Shown: in pieces, positions 41,784 through 43,579 of the stretch
Position numbering within the stretch: position 1 is the stretch's first letter
Layout: each line of letters opens with the position of its first letter
Source of the DNA: Nitratifractor salsuginis DSM 16511
Lineage (GTDB): Bacteria; Campylobacterota; Campylobacteria; Campylobacterales; Sulfurovaceae
Length of the DNA stretch: 64,000 nucleotides
Reading direction: 5' to 3'
NCBI RefSeq assembly: GCF_000186245.1
Contig: NC_014935.1
Coordinates: 558,001 to 622,000 of the forward strand
Notes under the pieces: generated by a model
Told to the model about the DNA's origin: nothing
The model's database searches: none
The model's input: the letters and a program-made list of their open reading frames with translations, nothing else
Program-made: the position numbers and the translations under genes

Positions 41784-42305
41784 TTAGAGGATTTCGATCT
41801 CTTTGGCTCCGCTCTCTTTCAGTGTCTCTTCGACCTGCTTGCTTTGAGCTTCGTCGGTTTTGACGATCAGGAGAATATGCCCCTCTTCGACCAGTTTTTC
41901 CAAACGCTTGGCGCCTTCGGCGGCCATTCCCCACTCGACCAGTCCATCAGCTACGCCAAAGAGGGCGCTTCCGGCCACGGCTCCACCCAGCAGTCCGTTG
42001 ATGGCGCCCGCCAGGGAAGCTCCCACCGTCGCCACCGGACCGGTCACGGGAGCGGTAAAGACGATTCCCCCGATCAGAAGCCCGAGCAAGCCGCCGGAGA
42101 GGGCTCCCCATTCGGCCCATTTCAAGGCTTTCTTGTTGGCTTTTTTCGTTTCGATGTCTTCGATCTTTTCCTCATCCTCCACACGGCTGATGATGGAGAT
42201 GTACTGTTTATCCACACCGCTTTTTACCAAAGCTTCGACACTTTTTTGCACTTGTGCGGAATCCGAACTTTCAAAGATAGCTACCACGAATTTATTATCT
42301 GCCAT
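41784..42305 (-). CDS. Glycine-zipper membrane protein, DUF1269-like
   Basis: A 173-aa protein with a cytoplasmic N-terminal alpha/beta part (FVVAIFESSDSAQVQKSVEA), a Gly-rich double hydrophobic segment (about residues 67-125, GGLLGLLIGGIVF...) of glycine-zipper type, and a C-terminal beta-rich part. It matches DUF1269-type stress or membrane-associated proteins. Convergent with the CvfB-like gene, one base apart. Function unknown. Confidence 0.72.
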   Translation of the reverse strand: MADNKFVVAIFESSDSAQVQKSVEALVKSGVDKQYISIISRVEDEEKIEDIETKKANKKALKWAEWGALSGGLLGLLIGGIVFTAPVTGPVATVGASLAGAINGLLGGAVAGSALFGVADGLVEWGMAAEGAKRLEKLVEEGHILLIVKTDEAQSKQVEETLKESGAKEIEIL

Positions 42306-42387: not shown

Positions 42388-42780
42388 TTACTCTTTTACA
42401 AAGTTTTCCAGATAGTCCAGAAACTCTTCCGCTCCGACTCCGCCGACGGCCCGGTCGAGCTTTTTGCCGTGCTCGTCGAGCACATAGAAGGTGGGCACGG
42501 CGAAGTATCCGAATCCCTCGGGGAGCATATCGTCGTCAATATCCAGGACGACCAGGACAAAATGCTTCTTGAGCAGGTTTGCGACATCTCTCTGTGGTAG
42601 AACAGCCTGTTCCATTCTGTTGCAAACCGGTCAACCCTTTTTGACATAGATCATCAAAACGAGTTTGTGCTCTTTTTGGGCTTTTTCCAGAGCCTCTTCA
42701 TAATCGTGGAGCCAACCGGCTGCCACGGCGAAAGAGCTCAGTAGAAGAAAGCCCGCCAGGATGAACAGCAGTTTTTTCAT
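42388..42780 (-). CDS. Exported thioredoxin-like selenoprotein (UxxC)
   Basis: Read through an in-frame TGA at codon 50 (42631-42633), this is a 130-aa thioredoxin-like protein: signal peptide (MKKLLFILAGFLLLSSFAVA), the first strand KLVLMIYVKKG, then Sec-P-V-C-N-R-M where thioredoxins have CPxC, then VLVVLDIDDDMLPEGFGY, the cis-Pro in FAVPTFYVLDEHGKKL, and YLENF. The frame is intact on both sides of the TGA, and TGA replaces exactly the first redox Cys. A SECIS-like hairpin follows. AAGGAAA precedes the ATG at 42778-42780 and a TATAAT box is at 42809-42814. Alternatives are a nonsense mutation or sequencing error, but the position makes selenocysteine far more likely. No sel genes are in the window. 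Confidence 0.82.
42595..42633 (-). promoter_or_regulatory. Candidate bacterial SECIS after UGA
   Basis: On the minus strand a hairpin GAAC-AGGCT-GTTC, extended by TGG/CCA with a small bulge, has its apical loop 22 nt after the TGA. The loop has G at position 2. These match the published bacterial SECIS rules (loop 3-14 nt, 16-37 nt from UGA, G within the first two loop bases). Confidence 0.6.
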
Positions 42781-42808
42781 TATCTTTCCTTATAAAATTT
42801 AATAAACA

Positions 42809-42898: not shown

Positions 42899-43579
42899 AT
42901 GAGATTCCGCGACAGGACCCATCTGCTCTTCGACCTCGACGGCACCCTCATCGATAGCGTACCCGATCTGGCCAAGGCGCTTAACGCGACTTTGCAGGAA
43001 TTGGGACTGCCCACTTATGATGAAGCGACGATCCGAAACTGGATCGGCAACGGGGCGGCGATGCTGGTCAAGCGGGGGTTGGCGGGTAATCGCCAGATCG
43101 ATCCCGAGCAGGATGAGGCGCTTTTTTCCGAAGCGATGGAGCGTTTTCTGGGTCACTATGAGCGGGTGCTCAATGACGCCACCGGGCTCTACCCTGGCGT
43201 AGCCGAGACCCTGGATGCCCTGAAGGACGCGGGATACACGATGGCGGTGGTGACCAACAAACCCTCCCAATTCGTCGGCCCCATCCTGCGAAACCTCTCC
43301 ATAGACAGCTTTTTTGATGTAATTGTGGGGGGCGAAGACTTGCCGCGCAAAAAGCCCGATCCCCTGCCACTGCTGCACGCCTGCGAGCGGATGGGCTGCG
43401 GCAAAGATCAGGCCCTGATGATCGGAGACTCCGCCAACGACATCCTGGCCGCCCAGACGGCGGGCATCCCGGTCATCGCCGTCAGCTACGGCTACGATAA
43501 CGGGCGATCGGTCAGGGAGCTGGGAGCGGACGAGGTGATCGGGGAATTCACGGAGATCTTGAAGAAATTACAGCGTTGA
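42899..43579 (+). CDS. gph: Phosphoglycolate phosphatase (HAD)
   Basis: HAD hydrolase (226 aa) of the Gph type, which removes phosphoglycolate. Motif I LLFDLDGTLIDS, motif II VVTNKPSQFV, the lysine in RKKPDP, and motif IV MIGDSANDILAA are all present, with the helical cap at about residues 20-85. Phosphoglycolate arises from oxidative DNA repair and Rubisco; with rTCA carbon fixation the former is likelier. Its stop codon lies inside a heptamer array. HAD substrate specificity cannot be proven from sequence. Confidence 0.88.
   Translation: MRFRDRTHLLFDLDGTLIDSVPDLAKALNATLQELGLPTYDEATIRNWIGNGAAMLVKRGLAGNRQIDPEQDEALFSEAMERFLGHYERVLNDATGLYPGVAETLDALKDAGYTMAVVTNKPSQFVGPILRNLSIDSFFDVIVGGEDLPRKKPDPLPLLHACERMGCGKDQALMIGDSANDILAAQTAGIPVIAVSYGYDNGRSVRELGADEVIGEFTEILKKLQR

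Follow-up and report, generated by a model that had tools for sequence, protein, structure and literature searches.

Probable decoding of UGA as selenocysteine in a small secreted thioredoxin-like protein of Nitratifractor salsuginis

Selenoproteins described as 'thiol:disulfide interchange protein' belong to PF13098 and carry the motif UxxC (Table 1 of PMC13188914); they have been listed for Deltaproteobacteria (PMC1794560). The selenoproteins found in Campylobacterota by an earlier survey were mainly formate dehydrogenase, SelD and SelW, in addition to one thioredoxin (PMC4607533). The paper reporting the 2,101,285 bp genome of Nitratifractor salsuginis E9I37-1 has no word starting with 'seleno' in its text (PMC3156401). 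Among the open-licence papers searched, just one mentions Nitratifractor and selenoprotein together, in the title of a reference, and the protein considered here is not described in it.

Nitratifractor is a deep-sea vent bacterium, and the gene that we analyzed lies in a 64,000-nt stretch of its genome (hereafter, the window). From comparison of this sequence with its relatives, the UGA at 42633-42631 is very probably decoded as selenocysteine (Sec) in a small secreted thioredoxin-like protein. We take this observation as real because of the comparative evidence, and not because of the hairpin rule discussed below.

The gene, its predicted product and the Sec machinery

Translation of the minus strand gives a single frame, from ATG to TAA, containing one in-frame TGA and specifying the 130-aa product MKKLLFILAGFLLLSSFAVAAGWLHDYEEALEKAQKEHKLVLMIYVKKG-U-PVCNRMEQ...VKE (Table 1). 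This confirms the preliminary description, in which reading through the TGA yields one continuous thioredoxin-like protein with Sec-Pro-Val-Cys (residues 50-53 in our numbering). The same description held that a predictor stopping at UGA would report only a 75-aa fragment from Met56, devoid of the redox motif, and this ORF (42388-42615, minus strand) is indeed in the ORF list; an annotation of this kind would leave a fragment without the active site. The matches to PF13098 and PF13899, at 42.8 and 42.2 bits, respectively, exceed the cut-off of 27 bits. At roughly the position of the Shine-Dalgarno-like element, AAGGAGAA, AAGGACAA or a comparable sequence is present in the orthologues, which also retain the type of signal peptide.

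Table 1. Features of the locus and of the related loci; positions refer to the window unless a locus is named.
Feature	Position	Strand	Remarks
YflT-like stress protein gene, downstream	41784..42305	-	PF11181, 29.0 bits; same position in several Nitratifractor relatives
Probable selenoprotein gene	42388..42780	-	ATG at 42780, TAA at 42388-42390; 130 codons + TAA; PF13098/PF13899 thioredoxin-like domain
Pro96 (AVPTF)	42493..42495	-	Invariant P96 in alignments
Putative bSECIS hairpin UGGAACA-GGC-UGUUCUA	42598..42614	-	Loop 42605-42607; conserved pairs, suppressed synonymous variation
Cys53, predicted resolving cysteine of UxxC	42622..42624	-	Invariant in alignments A1 and A3
In-frame TGA, probable Sec50 of UPVC (residues 50-53)	42631..42633	-	Orthologue/homologue comparison
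Probable Sec-pathway signal peptide MKKLLFILAGFLLLSSFAVAA	42718..42780	-	Cleavage near AVA-A; judged by eye
Shine-Dalgarno-like AAGGAAAG	42784..42791	-	3 nt 5' of ATG; read from sequence
HAD hydrolase gene, divergent neighbour	42899..43579	+	PF13419, 154 bits; synteny marker
Pentapeptide-repeat protein gene	L060:6387-6989; L062:6378-6860; matching place in L063-L073		Coupled in 14 loci

Given an alignment of the window protein and its relatives, AlphaFold2 predicts a confident thioredoxin-like fold past the signal peptide (pLDDT 85.7), residues 1-20 having low pLDDT. In the predicted model, Sec50 immediately precedes the helix formed by residues 51-60, which contains Cys53, and Pro96 occupies what we take to be the position of the thioredoxin cis-Pro loop. 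Of the solved structures, those closest in sequence are the putative disulfide isomerase 2kuc and the Thermus thioredoxin 2lst, and DsbD-gamma is matched as well; those closest in fold are the Bacteroides exported protein domain 3f9u, 2lst, DsbD-gamma and DsbH.

The search for selA, selB, selD and tRNA-Sec that had been proposed as a check found all four in the genome. A tRNA-Sec with anticodon TCA scores above the Rfam cut-off and is also found by ARAGORN; selA adjoins selB; selD has its own in-frame TGA near the N-terminus, in the context FVKAAGUAAKLG. With the formate dehydrogenase alpha model no TGA-containing member was found in this genome, and selD therefore served as the in-genome positive control. 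As a separate observation, made by translation and by eye, an integrase-like ORF begins about 190 nt past the tRNA-Sec gene (L001:1501-1595 and 1783-2949), as if the latter were used as attachment site by a mobile element.

UGA and cysteine codons among the relatives

In a scan of 175 genomes of the family, the 11 best matches came from nine members of the genus, window genome included, and two of a sister genus. All 11 close orthologues have one TGA, aligned with Sec50, and no other stop. A selA match was found in each of these 11 genomes, as compared to 34 of the 175 family genomes overall. On the other hand, the more distant homologues aligned from the family set have a Cys codon at the Sec50 position (13 of 13). 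Scanning of named genomes added two TGA records, L060 and L061, with the motif UPEC, and 13 others with Cys at this position. The expectation that Cys should alternate with UGA at this codon was thus borne out: TGA in close orthologues, Cys in the more distant homologues aligned and no other residue. In a maximum-likelihood tree the Sec and Cys forms fall on opposite sides of one branch with support 100/100; the direction of the change is not readable from this tree because its root is a midpoint only.

When the genus orthologues were compared with the window gene, pN was 0.06-0.13 and pS 0.57-0.90 over the 28 codons preceding the TGA; over the 77 codons following it, pN was 0.12-0.21 and pS 0.54-0.62. 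Purifying selection acts on both sides of the TGA. Since pN is well below pS on either side, the upstream part is under coding constraint like the downstream one and is no relic.

Two genomes (G085 and G118, loci L036 and L035) possess selA and yet have the Cys form of the gene, so that the Sec machinery alone does not bring the Sec form. A scan of viral contigs returned no relative of the gene. The window contains seven TGAs within UxxC or CxxU and with the frame open on either side, homology having been compared for that at 42631-42633 only.

The downstream hairpin and the alternative readings of the codon

Past the UGA, the mRNA can form a hairpin with a 7-bp stem and the loop GGC, whose G-containing loop lies 23 nt from the UGA; at this distance the loop A-GG-N-U is invariant in the Sec orthologues. 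Six stem pairs are intact in all nine distinct orthologue sequences, with one compensatory change from G-C to A-U. When the partners were slid by 1-3 columns as a control, pairing dropped from 92% to 40-67%. The compensatory change concerns one pair only, and covariation equally high was obtained in 17 of 500 shuffles. Codons +6 to +16, counted from the TGA, contain the hairpin UGGAACA-GGN-UGUUCUA and show a synonymous-codon identity of 0.905 versus 0.511 elsewhere, the top window of the gene; the contrast is much smaller for the same codons of the Cys homologues (0.665 versus 0.572). In the Sulfurovum Cys forms, Glu or Asp stands in place of Gln (CAG), which turns the central C-G pair of the stem into a G-G mismatch. 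Synonymous freezing also extends beyond the hairpin (CCACAAAAA): on the minus strand at 42589-42597 of the window, almost every Sec orthologue has CCA CAA AAA as codons +12 to +14, and no pairing partner explains this freezing.

The loop, stem and spacing of the conserved hairpin agree with the published bSECIS rules, which also set the energy at −7.5 kcal/mol at most (PMC13188914). When forced, the hairpin is thermodynamically weak, its energy ranging from −1.5 to −9.1 kcal/mol. For the window sequence alone it is not the MFE fold, the forced hairpin having −4.9 and the alternative best fold of 44-45 nt −7.9 kcal/mol, and shuffled sequences reach an equally good folding energy (z −0.12). Furthermore, about 19% of all window TGAs satisfy the loose rule of a G-loop hairpin of at least 6 bp at the allowed distance, which is why we did not use this rule alone as evidence. 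Of the earlier claim of a hairpin obeying bacterial SECIS spacing, the conserved structure and its G loop at 23 nt therefore stand, while folding energy lends it no help and the rule by itself says little. From its conservation, the hairpin is likely the SECIS. The clean split into a Sec and a Cys clade, with RNA constraint strong in the former and much weaker in the latter, makes a comparative case for a bSECIS shaping protein sequence.

A TGA midway in an otherwise intact gene could also be a true stop, the gene being a pseudogene or the codon a sequencing error. We give this reading practically no credence, considering that the same codon is TGA in independently sequenced genomes whose proteins share 47-78% identity, and that selection is purifying on either side of it. 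It is very improbable, too, that the locus makes two products, a 49-aa peptide ending at the UGA and a 75-aa protein restarted at Met56. Such an ORF, from the ATG at 42615, does exist, and the ATG is retained in most orthologues; its product, however, would lack the redox motif as well as the strands and helix with which the fold begins. The homologues run continuously across the codon with Cys, and L029 has GTA in place of Met56.

Low-level readthrough of UGA occurs in bacteria, and the codon could accordingly be read by a near-cognate tRNA as another amino acid, for instance Trp. This is hardly to be expected where every aligned homologue without TGA has Cys and none has Trp, where the genome has the full Sec machinery and where strong constraint on the hairpin stretch is restricted to the TGA forms. 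The pseudogene, the Met56 restart and the readthrough with another amino acid were thus rejected on the grounds of the shared TGA, the two-sided selection, the alternation with Cys only and the Sec machinery.

Proposed role and relation to known families

With the UGA read as selenocysteine, the gene product would be a periplasmic thioredoxin-fold thiol/selenol oxidoreductase. SelB and tRNA-Sec would decode codon 50, guided by the putative mRNA hairpin 17-33 nt downstream. By analogy with the thioredoxin mechanism, Sec50 would attack as nucleophile and Cys53 would resolve the mixed selenylsulfide. Most likely, judging from what is known of the family, the activity is a periplasmic selenol/thiol-disulfide exchange such as that of DsbD-gamma or DsbH. 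The protein could reduce disulfides or oxidised thiols in the periplasm as DsbD-gamma or DsbH does, with partner and direction that we infer, and be recharged by a membrane thiol carrier; the chances of this reductant role are roughly even.

The Nitratifractor loci share the HAD hydrolase gene, in the same divergent position, and the YflT-like gene is presumed to play no part in the mechanism. Among the Cys forms with downstream DNA plus L060 and L061 (L074, whose sequence is cut short, was left out), a secreted pentapeptide-repeat gene follows closely 3', mostly with overlapping stop and start. The encoded protein has a CxxC motif, in most cases DCxxCDL, at its N-terminus and is a candidate redox partner of the Cys and early Sec forms. 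The gene that comes next in L059, also overlapping, encodes a thioredoxin-superfamily protein (PF13743). Searching the genus with the L060 pentapeptide-repeat protein gave no match in the window genome and, in the other 12 genomes, just larger, weakly similar frames in two. One might see here a separate selenoprotein family, so far unnamed, that is peculiar to Campylobacterota and originally serviced the CxxC of the co-transcribed pentapeptide-repeat protein, Nitratifractor having kept Sec, lost the partner and switched substrate; we regard this scenario as rather doubtful.

On the basis of domain and motif, the protein appears to fit with the known PF13098 UxxC thiol:disulfide interchange selenoproteins, for which WP_011366075.1 is the reference member. 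It shares with them the PF13098 domain, one predicted Sec, the UxxC motif and the existence of Cys homologues; unlike them, it occurs in Campylobacterota (Nitratifractor and sister lineages) and is a stand-alone secreted protein of 130 aa. It resembles the C-terminal domain of DsbD (DsbD-gamma) and DsbH in fold and in the placement of the motif, and the NCBIfam models match weakly over the domain, below their curated cut-offs (DsbD, 27.3 versus 330 bits; DsbH, 28.5 versus 190 bits). It has no membrane domain, and the probable Sec replaces the first Cys. The Sulfurovum and Sulfuricurvum Cys homologues are about 32-41% identical to it and similar in length and signal peptide. They differ in having Cys at the Sec position, no strong synonymous constraint past this codon, and stop/start coupling to the secreted pentapeptide-repeat protein. 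What is new here is thus another member of the known Sec-containing UxxC proteins of PF13098, and not a new kind, by which a secreted UxxC protein is added to the known selenoproteins of Campylobacterota.
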